From Nitrospirota bacterium (GTDB lineage: Bacteria > Nitrospirota > Thermodesulfovibrionia > Thermodesulfovibrionales > JdFR-85), in contig JAYWMQ010000030.1 in the NCBI GenBank assembly GCA_035873375.1, forward strand, positions 1 to 62,113: a stretch of DNA of 62,113 nucleotides, in the 5' to 3' direction. This document shows positions 54,462 through 62,113 of the stretch, piece by piece. The notes beneath the pieces were generated by a model that had not been told where the DNA came from, did no database searches, and was given only the letters and a program-made list of their open reading frames with translations. A program made the position numbers and the translations under genes. Positions within the stretch are counted from its first letter, which is position 1. Every line of letters begins with the position of its first letter.

Positions 54462-54583
54462 CCCTGAATGCAAACCCGCCTGATATATATCTGAGAGAGG
54501 AGTTTATCATATCGCTTCCAACAACCATTTATCTCTGCATTCGGGTTATAATATAAAAACACACCCCGGCAGGAGGAATTAAG

Positions 54584-55303
54584 ATAACGGAAACAGGAAC
54601 GGAAAGCAATCTCACTGAAAAAAAAGGACCCTCCCTGACCGAGGGTCAGACAGCCATCTTCGGAGGCACATTCAACCCAATCCACTTTGGCCACCTGAGG
54701 GCAGCAGAAGAGGTGAGAGAGGCCCTCGGACTGAGTAAAGTCATATTTATCCCCTCCTGCGTTCCTCCGCTCAAGTCCGGAGACCTTGCCGAAGTCCACT
54801 GCAGACTCGAGATGGTCAGACTCGCTATCAGGGATAATCCGTATTTCGAACTCTCGGATATGGAGTGCCGCCGGGGCGAAAAGTCATACACTGTCAGGAC
54901 CCTTGAGGAATTAAAGGAACAACACCCCTCGATAGAGCCTCTCTTTATCCTTGGTGTTGATGCATTTCTGGACATCCCAAACTGGTACCAGCCGGAAAGA
55001 CTCATACAGCTCTGTGATTTTATCGTGGTTAACAGGCCGCCCTACAGTATAGAGGAGATTTTGAGGTCCCCCTTTCTTAAGGACGAGGGAATGCGCCTGT
55101 CAAGGGAGACGCAGGCACTGCTGAGTCTGAAGAGCGGCCGGAAGGTGATATCCATAAACTGTACTTCCATTGGAATATCCGCCTCTGATATCAGGGATAG
55201 GTTAAAAAAAGGGATGAGCATAAAATACCTGTTGCCTGAATCAGTGGAATCCTATATAATTTCTAATAAGCTTTACAATAATCTGCAGAGTGAAAGGTGG
55301 TGA
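54584..55303 (+). CDS. nadD: Nicotinate-nucleotide adenylyltransferase NadD, non-canonical start
   Basis: NadD makes deamido-NAD in NAD synthesis. The essential nucleotide-binding motif FGGTFNPIHFGHLRAAEEV and the C-terminal SIGISASDIRDRLKKG are present. No ATG, GTG or TTG lies in frame between the upstream stop (54554-54556) and the motif; the first standard start (GTG 54713) would delete the motif. Two candidates remain: ATA 54584, seven bases after a perfect aggagg, or CTG 54635, six bases after aagga. I use the first because of its spacing. An ATG-to-ATA change or a base error is the simplest explanation. Its stop overlaps rsfS. Confidence 0.88.
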   Translation: MTETGTESNLTEKKGPSLTEGQTAIFGGTFNPIHFGHLRAAEEVREALGLSKVIFIPSCVPPLKSGDLAEVHCRLEMVRLAIRDNPYFELSDMECRRGEKSYTVRTLEELKEQHPSIEPLFILGVDAFLDIPNWYQPERLIQLCDFIVVNRPPYSIEEILRSPFLKDEGMRLSRETQALLSLKSGRKVISINCTSIGISASDIRDRLKKGMSIKYLLPESVESYIISNKLYNNLQSERW

Positions 55304-55701: not shown

Positions 55702-57018
55702 ATGGGAAAACTGATCACGCTTATATTTATCCTGTTTCTTGGAGTTATAGCATATTTTGCTGTTCTCAACCGTGAAACCGTAACAGTACTGGTTACAAAC
55801 AACCTTGCCTACGAGATACCAAAGATAGCACTTGTGCTTATCTCTGCCACGGCCGGCGCACTGCTTATGTTGATCGTCTATACCATAAGGGATACGCGGA
55901 GGCTGATAGATAACATACAGGCCCAGAAACGTCAGAAAAAGCAGGAGAAGGTTCAGACCCTTTATTCACGTGCACTCGGTGCCATCTACGCAGGCAAGAC
56001 AGAGGTTGCCACAGATGCCCTGAAGGACATACTCAAGGAAGACCCCATGAACGTGCAGGCGCTTCTGAGGCTCGGAGAACTTGCACTCAATGCAAAAGAC
56101 CACAAAAAGGCCCTTGACTACTTCAAGAGGGCACTGTCGTCAGACCCCGAAAATGTCGAGACACTCCTCAGCCTCGTCAAGGTCAAGGAGTTGATGGGTG
56201 AACACGAGGAGGCGCTCACTTATATTGACGAGATACTGGAGAACGACCCGCAGAATATCACCGCACTTTACAGGAAGCGGGAGATACTCGAACGTCTCGC
56301 ACGGTGGGATGACCTGATATACCTTCAGAAGGGCATTATCAAGCAGTCCGGCGACGAAAACGAGCAGCAGATGCTGGTCGGCTATAAATATGAATACGGA
56401 CGCGAGAGCCTTGAGGCAGGGGAGCTTGAGAAGGCAAAAAAAGCCTTCAGGAATGTGATAAAGCTTGACAAGGATTTTATCCCGGCCCATCTTGGTCTTG
56501 CAGAGGTGATGGTACAGGAGGAAAATACGGAAGAGGCCATAAACTATCTTGAAAAGACTTACCAGCAATACAAATCCATGATTGTGCTTGCCCGGCTTGA
56601 GGACCTGCTGCTCAATATAGGGGAGCCGTCACGACTGATAAGGCTTTACAAGAACAGCCTTGCAGAAAAGCCCTCTGACAATGTCCTGAAATTCTTCCTT
56701 GCCAAGCTTTATTACAGGCTTGAGATGCTTGATGATGCCCTTGAGATTATCCAGGGGATAGAAAACCCGGCTGCATTCCCCGAGATAGCCAGGATCAAGG
56801 GCGGGATATACCTGAAGCGGGGTCAGACAGAAAAGGCTGCAGAGGAATTCGGGTCTGCCCTGAACCTGAAGATGACGCTCAGGTTACCTTACTGCTGCCT
56901 GAACTGCGGTCATACCTCCGAGCAATGGGCCGGCAGGTGCTCATCCTGCGGCAGGTGGAACACATATTATTTTAATATCCATGAGACCTGCAGGGTTACA
57001 GATGCAGAGCGGGGATAA
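55702..57018 (+). CDS. LapA-LapB fusion: membrane anchor, TPR and rubredoxin-like zinc domain
   Basis: A 438-residue protein. Residues 1-70 form two transmembrane helices with the LapA (DUF1049) look (LGVIAYFAVLNRETVTV and the second helix). From about 75 to 390 tetratricopeptide repeats follow (ALLRLGELALNAKDHKKALD and so on). The C-terminus has a rubredoxin-like zinc site, CLNCGHTSEQWAGRCSSCGRW, typical of LapB (YciM). LapB controls LpxC degradation and lipopolysaccharide synthesis in Gram-negative bacteria. Here the LapA-like anchor and LapB are one polypeptide. Its end overlaps the PIN gene by 17 bp. Confidence 0.85.
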   Translation: MGKLITLIFILFLGVIAYFAVLNRETVTVLVTNNLAYEIPKIALVLISATAGALLMLIVYTIRDTRRLIDNIQAQKRQKKQEKVQTLYSRALGAIYAGKTEVATDALKDILKEDPMNVQALLRLGELALNAKDHKKALDYFKRALSSDPENVETLLSLVKVKELMGEHEEALTYIDEILENDPQNITALYRKREILERLARWDDLIYLQKGIIKQSGDENEQQMLVGYKYEYGRESLEAGELEKAKKAFRNVIKLDKDFIPAHLGLAEVMVQEENTEEAINYLEKTYQQYKSMIVLARLEDLLLNIGEPSRLIRLYKNSLAEKPSDNVLKFFLAKLYYRLEMLDDALEIIQGIENPAAFPEIARIKGGIYLKRGQTEKAAEEFGSALNLKMTLRLPYCCLNCGHTSEQWAGRCSSCGRWNTYYFNIHETCRVTDAERG

Positions 57019-57646
57019 AGAAACCGGTCCGCGTACAGAGAGATTCAGACCCGGCAGGGTGGTTCTTGATACAAGCCTCTTTGTAAACCCGGATGCAAGG
57101 AAGTATTTTGGCGACACGCCGACTGAAGCCCTGGAGGGTTTTCTCTTCCTGGCGGCACAGATCCCGATACTTGAGTTTTATATGCCCCCTTCCATCTTCA
57201 GGGAGCTCCTGAACTTTATACAGAAGGACAAACTCTCAGGCGACCTCCTCGTGGTCCTGCATCAGAAACCACCAAGCAAATACGAGTTGACCTGCCCGGC
57301 CTTTCTGCTTTACGAGCTGATTGAGGATATAAGAGAGCGGATTAATAAAGGCCTGAGGGTTGCGGAATCAGCAGTCAGGGGAGTAAGCAGCAAGGGAGAG
57401 AAGGAGATCATTCAGGAGCTGAGAAGAAAATACAGGGAGGCGCTGAGAGAGGGGATAATCGACTCAAAAGAGGATGTAGACCTGATTCTCCTTGCAAGGG
57501 AACTGGATGCCCTGCTCGTTACAGCAGATCAGGGGGTGATTAAATGGGCTGAGAAGCTCGGCATTAAATGGCTCTTTCCCGAGAAATTCCGCGACTATCT
57601 CCTGAGTTCCATTAAAAAAGCCCGGCTCCTTGATATACAGATATAA
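57002..57646 (+). CDS. RNA ligase partner protein (PIN domain)
   Basis: A protein of about 214 residues of the PIN-domain RNA ligase partner family. RVVLDTSLFVNPDARK near the N-terminus supplies the first PIN Asp. Further acidic residues are in SKEDVDLILLARELDALLVTADQGVIKWA. PIN domains are metal-dependent RNases. The family is named for its repeated adjacency to Rnl3-type RNA ligases, and here the ligase gene follows in convergent orientation 30 bp away. Nuclease activity is inferred from the fold. I chose ATG 57002, after cagggttacag. Confidence 0.85.
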   Translation: MQSGDKETGPRTERFRPGRVVLDTSLFVNPDARKYFGDTPTEALEGFLFLAAQIPILEFYMPPSIFRELLNFIQKDKLSGDLLVVLHQKPPSKYELTCPAFLLYELIEDIRERINKGLRVAESAVRGVSSKGEKEIIQELRRKYREALREGIIDSKEDVDLILLARELDALLVTADQGVIKWAEKLGIKWLFPEKFRDYLLSSIKKARLLDIQI

Positions 57647-57675
57647 GCCCCGGAAAGCAGAAGAAATCTTTCACG

Positions 57676-58782
57676 TCAATCATAAAACCCATAACCCCTG
57701 AGTTTTCGCCTCAGCTCTTTTGTACCCTTTGGAAAAGTCCTGTAAAAGACACACCTGTACCTGGTCCCGGCCCTCTCAATAGAGACCGGATGAACGCTCA
57801 CCCCTGTTCTTCCGAGATGCTGCATCAGGGCATCCATCGTCTCTTTCCTGTTAACCCGGATCGTAAAAAACTCTTTTATGCTCTCTCCGGAGGCCACTCT
57901 CCGGACAGTATCCTGCAGGGGGTCTATCAGGGCATCGGCAATTGAGAGCTTGGCGGTATCGTCAAGCGTGAGGGAGTGCTCATATGTTATTGCGGCAATA
58001 CGGATTAACCTCTGAATATAAAAACCAGCGGGAAGCTCGGTTATGAGGTGTGCCGTGGAGTGTATATCCCGTATGCAGGAGCTCAGCGTTACATACTTGA
58101 CCTCCTCTCCTCCGGCAACTGATTTTATCACCAACCCTTCCCTGTCTTCCCTGTCAAGCTCAAAGAGAATGGTTTTGATCTCCTCTACGTCACTGTCCGA
58201 AAAAGGCCCCCAGTGTCTCACACATGGAAGGGACTTTTCTTCATATATCCTGTATCTCTCACCCAGGGAGATGCTCTTGCCGTCAGGGTCCTTGATGTCA
58301 AAGGCAAAGAAGGCGATATCCTCTTTCATATAAGGTACTGCCTCTGAATTATAGGGGTTTTCAGGACCCACCACCTCACCACAGAGCGTATAGTCAGGAA
58401 GATCATCGAAAAAACCAATGGGAAGAAGATCAGGAAGCCTGTCCGTTGTAAAGGGGCAAATAACCCCCCCTCTTGTAAAGGCAAAGACCCTCGCACCTAT
58501 CCTCCTGACCCTTACATTATAACCGTCCATCTTCTCTTCAGCGTAGAATGGCCCTCTAAAATACCGTCTGATCCCCTGCTCAAGGTGCAAAATCCTCTTG
58601 ATCTTCTGATAGCCGTGCAGTATTCCGCTGTCCCAGAAAACAGTGCCCCTGGGCAGACCGGAGAGGTCTTTTGTCAGGCGGTAAAAGGTTCTCTTCTCAA
58701 TGTCGAAGGACTGTAAGGTCTCATTGTTTATCCTCTCCCCGGGGAGGTAATTTTTCAGGAAATCGGGAAACTCCGCTATCAT
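57676..58782 (-). CDS. Rnl3-type (archaeal) ATP-dependent RNA ligase
   Basis: A 368-residue RNA ligase of the Pab1020/MTH1221 (Rnl3) type. The adenylated Lys84 is in AEEKMDGYNVR, motif III-like FFAFDIKD, motif IV EGLVIKS, and motif V EVKYVTL follow in order. A C-terminal helical domain supports dimerisation in this family. Archaeal members circularise or seal RNA ends. The stop of the upstream nucleotidyltransferase gene overlaps its ATG (ATGA), so it is translationally coupled to a tRNA 3'-end enzyme. A role in RNA end repair is inference. Confidence 0.88.
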   Translation of the reverse strand: MIAEFPDFLKNYLPGERINNETLQSFDIEKRTFYRLTKDLSGLPRGTVFWDSGILHGYQKIKRILHLEQGIRRYFRGPFYAEEKMDGYNVRVRRIGARVFAFTRGGVICPFTTDRLPDLLPIGFFDDLPDYTLCGEVVGPENPYNSEAVPYMKEDIAFFAFDIKDPDGKSISLGERYRIYEEKSLPCVRHWGPFSDSDVEEIKTILFELDREDREGLVIKSVAGGEEVKYVTLSSCIRDIHSTAHLITELPAGFYIQRLIRIAAITYEHSLTLDDTAKLSIADALIDPLQDTVRRVASGESIKEFFTIRVNRKETMDALMQHLGRTGVSVHPVSIERAGTRYRCVFYRTFPKGTKELRRKLRGYGFYD

Positions 58783-61427
58783 CCCTGCCTCCTCAGGAAA
58801 TCCTTTACAAACTCGACCTCTTCCTCCCGGCTTTTGATCCTCCCCCTCAGCCTTTCCTCCAGTATTGCATTAAATATCCTTGAATAAAGAGGTCCGGGCT
58901 CAATCCCCACTGACATAAGGTCTCCTCCCCTGAGTTCCGGTTTCACCTTTCTCAGCTCAAGCAGATACCTTGAGATGGCCTTCTGTATCTCCCGGTCGCC
59001 AGAAACTGCCATTGTGTAGAGGAGGGTTTCAAGGGAGAGGGGCTTGAGGGTATGATAAATCCTTACCGGATCTTTAGTCCTCAGCTCCTTTATAACCTGT
59101 TGGGCCTTTTGCATCTCATCAAGGATTATCGTCATATCCCTCGCAGGGGTTGAAAGCCTTTCAAGTGCTGCCTTCCGTTCCTCAAGACCGAGACCGGTAA
59201 GGAGCCCCATTATGTATACCCTTGAACGGTCTATCTCGTCCTCAAGAAAGAGGAGGTCAAACCATGTAAGACTCTCATGCACTGCTTCAAGGGTCTCCTC
59301 AAGCGACTCGGCAAACTTGAGCTCAGGGTGGATAACCTGCAGAAGGCCATATCCGGCAAGACTTTTCAGCGCCCTCACCGGATCGATCTCCTTAAAGGTA
59401 AGTACAAGCTCGTCATAAATCCTCGTGCCTGAGACACGTTCAAACAGGTTCAGTCTGAGGGCTGATTTTATGAGGTTTTCAGTATGTTTGTTAATCCTGA
59501 ACCCAAACCTCTCTGCAAACCTGACAGCCCTGAAGGCACGTGTAGGGTCTTCTACAAAACTGAGGTTATGCAAAACCCTTATGGTCTTCTCCCTGAGGTC
59601 CCGCTGGGCGCCGAAATAATCAATCAGCTGCCCAAAATCCCTGGCGTTGAGTTTCACTGCAATCGCATTTATCGTAAAATCCCTCCTGTAAAGGTCTTTC
59701 TTGATTGAAGAGGTCTCCACCTTTGGAAGCATGGCAGGCGCCTCATAATACTCTGTCCTTGCAGTTGCAATATCCACTGTAAAACCGGGTGCCGGCATCT
59801 TCAGCCCGGCCTTTTCGGTAAAGCGGATCTTTGCCGTGTTGAACCTCTTGTGGGTAATGAGCTTGACCCCTCCAATCTGTCCGGCAAGTCTCCTGGCAAA
59901 CTCAATTCCGTCACCCTCAACAACAATATCGATATCAAGGTTTTTCCCGCCCATCAGGAGGTCCCTTACCGAACCGCCGACAAGATATACATTATAACCA
60001 AGCCTGTCCGCCACCTCTCCGGCAATCCTGAGTAAGGCCACTATCTCGTTTGGAAAGCGTTCAACAATCAATCTGGATATATTCTTTCCCATGGCGGGTT
60101 TCTCTATCAGACCCTCCTTCTGTATCCTGCTGCGGCGGAGTGTTGCCTCGTAGAGGTCCCTGAGGAGGTCGGTCCTTGTGATGGCCCCGACGACCACCCT
60201 GCCGTTGTCAATAACAGGCATGAACCGCTGGTTCTGCTCTATCATCACGGACTCCACTTCCGTTACAGGGGCCTCGGGATATGTTACCCCAGCATCAGTT
60301 GTGGCAAACTCGGATGCCCTGCTGCTGCCGAACCCGTGAAACAACGCCTTCTCCACTATCTCCCTTGAGAGAAGCCCGTAATACTTATCCCCCTTCAGTA
60401 CGGGCAGGACATTAACGCCGTATCTGGTCATAATTGTCGCTGCCTTCTTTATAGTGGTCTTCCACTGGATGGATATAACAGGGGCGGTCATTATGTCCTT
60501 TGCCTGCCTCTGGGGTTTGATAGTCTCCTTTATCTTCCTGACCAGTCTCTCTTCAATCACCTCAAGGGGTTCGTCCTTAAGGGTTGCAGATGCCGCAACC
60601 GGATGCCCGCCGCCTCCAAACTCCCCGAGCACCTCTGCCACATCAAGCTCCGGCACACGGCTCCTGCCGACCATCACCACCTTGCCTTCCATTGCAAGGA
60701 GCATAAACAGGGCGTCAACGTGCTCCATATCCATAATCCTGTGGGCAAGATGAGCCACATCACCAAAGTACTCCTCCCTCGATGCCTTTACGATCCTTAT
60801 CCTTATGCCGTAGAGGAGCAGGTCCCTTGATGAGGCCACCAGTTCGTTCAGGAGTTTAAGTTCCGCCTTGCTCAACTCCGCCTTTATGTATTCCGACACT
60901 ATATTGAGATTTGCACCATGCCTGAGGAGATAGGCCGCTGCAAGGAGGTCCCTCTCTGTTGTGGAAGGAAACCGCAGTGACCCGGTCTCCTCGTAGATGC
61001 CCAGGCAGAGGACGGTTGCATCCATCGGCGTAAGGGGAATCTTCTGCTCTTTTATTATCTCTGTAAAGATCGTTGCAGTAGCGCCTGCATCCTCAATAAC
61101 CTCAACCTCGCCCCTCAGGTCCTTTTCTGTAATTGGATGGTGGTCATAGATATGGATCTTTACCTTTCCGGAGAGTGCAATTTCACTAAACGGACCGAGC
61201 CTGTGGGGGTTTTTGGTATCTACAATGATCAGACGGGTTACACGCTGCAGGTCTATCTCCCTGACTTTTTTGATCTCAACCGGTTCAAAAGTCTGGAGGA
61301 ACTCTCTGACCTTCCTCTCCTGCGAGCCCGGGAAAACAGGTATTGCCTCAGGATAGATCTTTTTTGCGCCGAGCATGGAGGAGAGACAGTCAAAATCTGC
61401 ATTAACATGGCAGACGATCAGGTCCAT
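58779..61427 (-). CDS. DHH-CBS-tRNA nucleotidyltransferase fusion (CCA- or A-adding)
   Basis: An 882-residue fusion. Residues 1-310 are a DHH/DHHA1 phosphoesterase (HVNADFDCLSS, DHH at 95-97, GGGGHPVAASA), about 315-435 two CBS domains, and about 465-882 a class II poly(A)/tRNA nucleotidyltransferase: GGSVRDLLMGG, DIDIVVEGD with the catalytic Asp pair, RRDFTINA and EDPTRAFRAVRFAERF. Such fusions occur in Aquificae, Deltaproteobacteria and Nitrospirota-like genomes. Enzymes with this layout add A, or CC, or CCA to tRNA ends; which one cannot be decided here. It starts the unit with the RNA ligase. Confidence 0.92.
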   Translation of the reverse strand: MDLIVCHVNADFDCLSSMLGAKKIYPEAIPVFPGSQERKVREFLQTFEPVEIKKVREIDLQRVTRLIIVDTKNPHRLGPFSEIALSGKVKIHIYDHHPITEKDLRGEVEVIEDAGATATIFTEIIKEQKIPLTPMDATVLCLGIYEETGSLRFPSTTERDLLAAAYLLRHGANLNIVSEYIKAELSKAELKLLNELVASSRDLLLYGIRIRIVKASREEYFGDVAHLAHRIMDMEHVDALFMLLAMEGKVVMVGRSRVPELDVAEVLGEFGGGGHPVAASATLKDEPLEVIEERLVRKIKETIKPQRQAKDIMTAPVISIQWKTTIKKAATIMTRYGVNVLPVLKGDKYYGLLSREIVEKALFHGFGSSRASEFATTDAGVTYPEAPVTEVESVMIEQNQRFMPVIDNGRVVVGAITRTDLLRDLYEATLRRSRIQKEGLIEKPAMGKNISRLIVERFPNEIVALLRIAGEVADRLGYNVYLVGGSVRDLLMGGKNLDIDIVVEGDGIEFARRLAGQIGGVKLITHKRFNTAKIRFTEKAGLKMPAPGFTVDIATARTEYYEAPAMLPKVETSSIKKDLYRRDFTINAIAVKLNARDFGQLIDYFGAQRDLREKTIRVLHNLSFVEDPTRAFRAVRFAERFGFRINKHTENLIKSALRLNLFERVSGTRIYDELVLTFKEIDPVRALKSLAGYGLLQVIHPELKFAESLEETLEAVHESLTWFDLLFLEDEIDRSRVYIMGLLTGLGLEERKAALERLSTPARDMTIILDEMQKAQQVIKELRTKDPVRIYHTLKPLSLETLLYTMAVSGDREIQKAISRYLLELRKVKPELRGGDLMSVGIEPGPLYSRIFNAILEERLRGRIKSREEEVEFVKDFLRRQG

Positions 61428-61441
61428 AAAGATAGGATAAC

Positions 61442-62113
61442 CTATCCGTCAGCCTTTTTTCTGAGTTTCCTGCTTGTCTTTATCCTGTCCCGTCCACTGG
61501 ATTTTGCCTCGAATAATGCGGTATCGGCAAGGGTTATGAGGTCATCGTGGGTATGAATATCATGTACGGGCCAGCAGGATATACCGATGCTTGAGGTAAT
61601 CCTTTCCTTTCCGATTCCCTTGAATCCGTGTTCCCTGATAAAGGTCCTCAGTCTCCCGGCCTCCTTCTCTGCACCGTCAAGCGGTGTCTGGGGAAGTAAA
61701 ATAATGAACTCCTCGCCTCCGTAGCGGGCAAAGACATCGCTCTTTCGAACATGGCTCCTTACGAGTTGGGCAAACTCCCTGAGCACCATGTCACCCATCC
61801 GGTGACCATAGGTATCGTTTATCTTCTTGAAATGATCGATATCCAGCATTAGGCAGGAAATGGGATGTCCATAACGCTCGGCGCTGCTGAACTCTTCTTC
61901 CAGCCGGTGATAAAAGTACCTGATGTTATACACCCCTGTTAGGTAGTCTGTTATGGCGAGTTTCTCAAGCCTTGATTTTTCATTCTCAAGTTTTTCAAAA
62001 AGAAAGGCATTATAGAGGACATTGGCGGATAGATTTGCAATTGCATTGCAGAGGTCAATCTCCCTCCTGGTAAAGGCCGACCTGACCCTTGATGTCCTCA
62101 AAAAAAGTGTCCC
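61442..62113 (-). CDS. GGDEF diguanylate cyclase, N-terminus beyond the window
   Basis: The frame is open to the window edge. The visible part has the end of a GAF-like domain (FTRREIDLCNAIANLSANVL), a helical linker and a full GGDEF domain with GGEEF and an RKSD I-site five residues before it. It makes c-di-GMP. The TTG at 62101 inside the frame is not a likely start because upstream codons (DTFFLRTS) continue the GAF pattern. It lies 14 bp before the DHH-CBS fusion gene in the same direction and may be in its operon. Confidence 0.88.
   Translation of the reverse strand, partial: GTLFLRTSRVRSAFTRREIDLCNAIANLSANVLYNAFLFEKLENEKSRLEKLAITDYLTGVYNIRYFYHRLEEEFSSAERYGHPISCLMLDIDHFKKINDTYGHRMGDMVLREFAQLVRSHVRKSDVFARYGGEEFIILLPQTPLDGAEKEAGRLRTFIREHGFKGIGKERITSSIGISCWPVHDIHTHDDLITLADTALFEAKSSGRDRIKTSRKLRKKADG

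Follow-up and report, generated by a model that had tools for sequence, protein, structure and literature searches.

Introduction

HARPs belong to the protein-only RNase P family, and in the HARP of Aquifex aeolicus, Aq880, the catalytic aspartates and the arginines of the spike helix have been shown to be important (PMC8266387). Assays of some bacterial HARPs have found no activity (PMC12153264). HARP genes co-occur with genes for Rnl3 RNA ligases and, where the two are adjacent, they are usually convergent, as has already been published (Seshadri and Gopalan 2025, PMC12153264). One such ligase, MthRnl, joins 5'-phosphate to 3'-hydroxyl RNA ends; it also removes a 3'-terminal adenosine in vitro, and the authors of that work named tRNA CCA ends as candidates (PMC5599603). 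Here, we describe a HARP-Rnl3 locus near the right end of a 62,113-nucleotide (nt) stretch of DNA from a Nitrospirota bacterium (contig JAYWMQ010000030.1 of assembly GCA_035873375.1), the whole of which we refer to as the window.

The core of this locus, the HARP-Rnl3 pair, is already known. What is new is the coupling, specific to one bacterial family, of the ligase gene to the gene for a tRNA 3'-end enzyme, which the main text of the published account of the pair does not mention. The locus bears on the retention of HARP beside an RNA-based RNase P and on its travelling with an RNA ligase. Translational coupling of the ligase to an enzyme of tRNA 3' ends makes tRNA the first substrate candidate.

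Identity of the three genes

Profile searches of the window place the three genes of the locus at the coordinates given by a first-pass annotation that had been made from the sequence alone. The first gene (57002..57646, plus strand) had been called a PIN partner of the ligase. The partner is real and does converge on the ligase gene, but it is not a generic PIN nuclease: it is a HARP, and it stands in a published pair. The protein scores 198.5 bits against TIGR03875 ('RNA ligase partner'; cut-off 95.3) and 197.9 bits against PF08745 (PIN_5; cut-off 27), and all seven of its PDB matches are RNA-free RNase P. Alignment to Aq880 shows the catalytic aspartates to be present (D30, D161, D165 and D183) and equates R148 and R152 with the spike-helix residues R125 and R129; these aspartates and arginines are invariant among the ten HARP sequences aligned. 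Oligomerization and cleavage at the 5' end of pre-tRNA are the properties predicted for it. The reading frame opens at 56981, and the ATG at 57002, which the first-pass annotation took as the start, overlaps the end of the upstream TPR gene.

The second gene (57676..58782, minus strand) encodes an ATP-dependent RNA ligase of the Rnl3 (Pab1020) family, as had been proposed. Its product reaches 301 bits against TIGR01209 (cut-off 136.9), also matches PF09414 and PF18330, and has the PDB relatives 8uce, 2vug and 5d1o; the motif I lysine is invariant across the aligned ligases. It is predicted to use ATP to join or circularize RNA with 5'-phosphate and 3'-hydroxyl ends. A viral origin of the ligase was considered and rejected, there being no relatives in viral contigs or phage records and only two haloarchaeal plasmids that carry one.

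The third gene (58779..61427, minus strand) encodes DHH, DHHA1 and two CBS domains together with a PolyA_pol head, in agreement with its earlier description as a DHH-CBS-nucleotidyltransferase. The protein matches NF041569, the A-adding tRNA nucleotidyltransferase model, over its full length with 868.7 bits, below the strict cut-off of 1440; that cut-off is reached by no genome of our sample of 296 Nitrospirota genomes, and the window enzyme is not filed under the model. Its closest solved relative is 3h37, probably the CCA-adding enzyme of T. maritima. The genome holds two nucleotidyltransferases, and the second, on contig C6, is without the flexible loop between motifs A and B, which is long in the window enzyme. 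A missing flexible loop is a hallmark of CC-adding enzymes (PMC3925840). The short-loop enzyme, which bears this hallmark, fits CC-addition, so that addition of A76 is the predicted task of the window enzyme. The A-adding assignment stays a prediction, since the NF041569 score lies below the cut-off and the nearest solved relative is of the CCA type; full CCA addition by the window enzyme is possible. DHH motif IV reads YEETG in all 41 aligned nucleotidyltransferase sequences, whereas the NrnA motif is presumably D-T-G, so DHH activity cannot be assumed.

Distribution of the HARP-Rnl3 pair

Profile cut-offs for ligase and HARP were applied to the phylum sample. The ligase was found above its cut-off in 18 of the 296 genomes and HARP in 75. 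All 18 ligase-positive genomes are also HARP-positive (hypergeometric 3e-12, uncorrected for shared ancestry), and no ligase without HARP was found in the sample, whereas 57 of the 75 HARP-positive genomes are without the ligase. When 37 HARPs of these genomes are placed on a tree, ligase presence must have changed at least seven times.

Loci were fetched from five groups: Nitrospirota, Planctomycetota, Aquificota, delta/Myxococcota and Thermococci. Since HARP and ligase lie tail to tail in all 58 fetched loci that hold both genes, from five phylum-level groups, their convergence is not due to chance. In other loci, most of them from Thermococci and some from Planctomycetota, the fetched flank did not contain HARP. 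Over 58 pairs, the protein distances of HARP and ligase are correlated (r = 0.90); a part of this correlation is expected from common descent alone. The two genes overlap by 4-39 nt in 30 of the 58 loci; these 3' overlaps are mostly multiples of three (22/30) and measure 30 nt in all nine Aquificota loci. The stops of the window's two genes are separated by 29 nt, and a terminator, promoter or repeat was sought in this intergenic stretch, with none found above shuffles.

Coupling of the ligase gene to the nucleotidyltransferase gene

The stop codon of the nucleotidyltransferase gene (58779-58781) and the ligase ATG (58780-58782) form an exact ATGA overlap (58779..58782, minus strand), and a Shine-Dalgarno-like GAGGAGG (58788..58794, minus strand) lies 5 nt upstream of that ATG, within the nucleotidyltransferase gene. 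Direct reading of the sequence and the profile searches bear out both this coupling and the convergence of HARP on the ligase, as first annotated.

Of the 17 genomes that represent the window's family, 13 have the ligase, and each of these 13 carries it on the same strand as the nucleotidyltransferase gene and immediately downstream of it, a constancy that is not due to chance. In 12 of them the overlap measures 4-44 nt, and in the other one a gap of 4 nt separates the genes; the junction of G288 was inferred across a contig break, because in locus L091 the start of the ligase gene overlaps the end of the nucleotidyltransferase gene. The exact ATGA was rejected as a conserved feature, only some relatives having it and others overlapping by 8-44 nt. 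Conservation of the overlap, which the first-pass annotation had raised as a check, is thus found within the family, but no overlap was seen outside it. Nor are the two genes unlinked in all relatives: the junction is conserved across six genera, though of a single family. The coupling is lineage-specific.

Among the genomes and loci examined, the link was not seen outside the window's family. The two genes are far apart in G014, a complete, single-contig genome from outside the family, and the other neighbor of the ligase is a glutaminyl-tRNA synthetase gene in the related family f3 and other genes elsewhere. The gene beyond the ligase in five f3 loci (L094, L095, L096, L103 and L104) falls in the cluster of glutaminyl/glutamyl-tRNA synthetases, being GlnRS in L094, and most of these loci have another synthetase gene close by. 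One member of the window's own family, G270, is without the ligase, and there the nucleotidyltransferase and HARP genes are directly convergent, 12 nt apart (L093, 1943-5236).

Three DHH genes are present in the window's genome. A TrkA_N-DHH-DHHA1 protein divergently adjoins the Rnl3 ligase in anammox-type Planctomycetota, in 24 of about 28 informative loci (L124, L126, L127, L132-L134, L137, L139-L142, L144, L145, L147, L148, L150, L152-L154, L157, L160, L161, L166 and L175), some of them without HARP nearby. Given the number of DHH genes in the window's genome, two independent DHH placements beside Rnl3 look unlikely by chance, in a test that was post hoc. A thermococcal DHH gene was considered as a third linkage and set aside, as several genes separate it from the ligase and it belongs to a conserved run of its own.

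RNA processing in the host genome

The genome encodes a full-length RNase P RNA (277 bits), RnpA and RtcB. The RtcB gene (G000:C43:17171-18765; loci L185 and L215) stands directly beside tRNA-Asp and tRNA-Met genes. CCA is encoded by all 43 tRNA genes found, and no match to fibrillarin was obtained in the genome.

HARP as the sole RNase P was rejected given the RNase P RNA and RnpA, and a need for the nucleotidyltransferase in primary CCA synthesis was rejected given the encoded CCA ends. The HARP of Hydrogenobacter is 10-fold slower on CCA-bearing pre-tRNA (PMC10652100), and here HARP probably does not carry the main load of tRNA 5' processing. Because RNA-based RNase P is present and CCA is encoded throughout, HARP and the nucleotidyltransferase are probably dispensable for primary tRNA making. 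The CCA enzymes of this genome should instead serve end repair, since every tRNA gene encodes CCA; this agrees with the tRNA 3'-end repair role first suggested for the nucleotidyltransferase.

Neighboring genes

On the plus strand, the right end of the window carries NadD, RsfS, a LapB-like TPR protein and HARP; its minus-strand genes encode a GGDEF protein, the nucleotidyltransferase and the Rnl3 ligase, the last of which converges on HARP. The TPR gene (55702..57018, plus strand) is the usual upstream neighbor of HARP in the order and adjoins it in most related loci. The GGDEF gene (61442..62113, minus strand), which is cut by the window end, is the upstream neighbor of the nucleotidyltransferase gene, a position conserved in the window's family. 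The NadD gene (54560-55303, plus strand) has no in-frame ATG, GTG or TTG ahead of the FGGTFNPIHFGH motif at its N terminus; since ATT/ATA codons come after a strong AGGAGG, a non-standard start codon is possible.

Interpretation of the locus

Our leading reading, which we hold tentatively, is a module that cuts and seals RNA ends, HARP acting before Rnl3, and that in one family is joined to a tRNA enzyme restoring A76; its substrate we infer. HARP would cut the 5' end and leave a 5'-phosphate, Rnl3 would then seal or circularize this end by joining it to a 3'-hydroxyl close by, and the A-adding enzyme, produced along with them, would keep tRNA-like 3' ends usable. Cleavage by PIN nucleases or by RNase P yields 5'-phosphate and 3'-hydroxyl ends. 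Because these are the ends that MthRnl joins, HARP and Rnl3 could act in sequence without healing enzymes, and such shared end chemistry fits the one-way dependence of the ligase on HARP. Since the genome keeps an RNA-based RNase P and a CCA in every tRNA gene, the module would most likely not make tRNA in the first place but provide a back-up for the processing of tRNA or of other stem-closed small RNAs, or repair or turn over such molecules. Rejoining of cut tRNA by Rnl3, as put forward in the first-pass annotation, is possible.

Several points weigh against this cut-and-seal reading. The link to the nucleotidyltransferase does not extend beyond one family and could be neutral: once genes overlap, they are hard to separate whatever their function. 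The ligase is dispensable in G270, since that genome is without it and keeps HARP and the nucleotidyltransferase side by side. Circular intermediates of tRNA and rRNA were not affected when Thermococcus kodakarensis had lost its Rnl (PMC9014305).

Neutral linkage is a strong rival: HARP and Rnl3 would be functionally linked, and the nucleotidyltransferase would have arrived by an accidental ancestral rearrangement in the family and then been locked in place by gene overlap. We regard this as a realistic possibility. Almost all genomes of the phylum have a nucleotidyltransferase match, a much wider range than that of the ligase, and both the far-apart genes of G014, outside the family, and the other ligase neighbors of other families, such as glutaminyl-tRNA synthetase, are what an accident would give. 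Yet the block is intact while the gene order beyond NadD and beyond the GGDEF gene differs among the family's genera, and the range of overlap lengths indicates that the junction has been re-made with the coupling kept. A tRNA 3'-end enzyme is also a pointed neighbor for an RNA ligase.

We find doubtful a reversible cycle in which Rnl3 strips tRNA of its terminal A and this base is put back by the A-adding enzyme, so that the chargeable tRNA pool is controlled. The 3'-deadenylation by MthRnl in vitro and its authors' suggestion of tRNA CCA ends speak for such a cycle (PMC5599603), and the expression coupling to a predicted A-adding enzyme is at most suggestive. However, the 2',3'-cyclic phosphate that deadenylation leaves blocks A-addition unless healed, so that the cycle would need a healing enzyme as well, and excess ATP inhibits deadenylation by MthRnl in vitro; for a bacterial Rnl3, deadenylation is presumed by analogy. 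Equally doubtful is a wider scheme in which bacterial HARP, Rnl3 and the A-adding enzyme form a dedicated tRNA end cycle: Rnl3 would deadenylate or circularize tRNA, or HARP-cut tRNA, A76 would be restored, and the DHH-Rnl3 adjacency of Planctomycetota would reflect a shared clean-up step. If true, this cycle would amount to reversible control of the tRNA pool.

The first-pass annotation had also suggested that the cut tRNA might result from attack by nucleases, a claim that our results do not support; anti-phage or anti-ribotoxin tRNA repair is very unlikely here. Phage T4 RNA ligases perform tRNA repair and provide a precedent, but the three genes have no PADLOC match (a weak hit falls on the TPR protein only), the ligase has no phage or viral relatives, and the cluster holds no kinase or phosphatase partner and has housekeeping neighbors. 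Classical anticodon nucleases leave 5'-OH and cyclic-phosphate ends, which differ from the 5'-phosphate and 3'-hydroxyl chemistry of MthRnl.

Of the ideas raised in PMC12153264, a toxin-antitoxin pair would have HARP as the toxin and the ligase repairing its cuts or restraining it. The genes are adjacent and HARP falls in a VapC-like PIN group, but the one-way dependence argues against such a pair, HARP often occurring alone and ligase presence changing repeatedly on the HARP tree, and we consider it highly improbable. To our knowledge, C/D guide ribonucleoproteins do not occur in bacteria. The archaeal hypothesis of box C/D small-RNA maturation (PMC12153264), in which HARP trims 5' ends and Rnl3 circularizes the product, draws on Rnl circularization shown in Thermococcus (PMC9014305), but it is hard to transfer to a bacterium that lacks such machinery, is already disfavored by the missing fibrillarin match and is the least credible of the readings.

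Comparison with known systems

The window HARP has its profile family, catalytic aspartates and spike-helix arginines in common with Aq880 (PDB 7f3e, 7og5 and 7e8k); what differs is that its genome also encodes RNase P RNA and RnpA and has CCA in every tRNA gene. With Pab1020 (2vug) and MthRnl (5d1o), the ligase shares its core, the C-terminal domain, the motif I KxDG and a conserved T-R pair; unlike them, it is bacterial, comes from a genome without a fibrillarin match and is encoded by a gene coupled to a tRNA nucleotidyltransferase. The third gene resembles the DHH-CBS A-adding nucleotidyltransferase (NF041569) that works with a CC-adding partner in Aquifex, in its domain order, its long loop and the second, short-loop enzyme of the genome, but the window enzyme falls below the strict cut-off and its DHH motif IV is YEETG, as in all relatives sampled.

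The closest described system is the HARP-Rnl3 pair of PMC12153264, with the same two families in the same convergent orientation and with Thermodesulfovibrionales among its named bacterial carriers. In the genome set of that study the figure for ligase presence is 89%, compared with only 18 of the 75 HARP genomes in our phylum sample. The overlapping tails in 30 of our 58 loci are a further difference. A nucleotidyltransferase or DHH neighbor, not mentioned in the main text of that paper, is present in the window's family.

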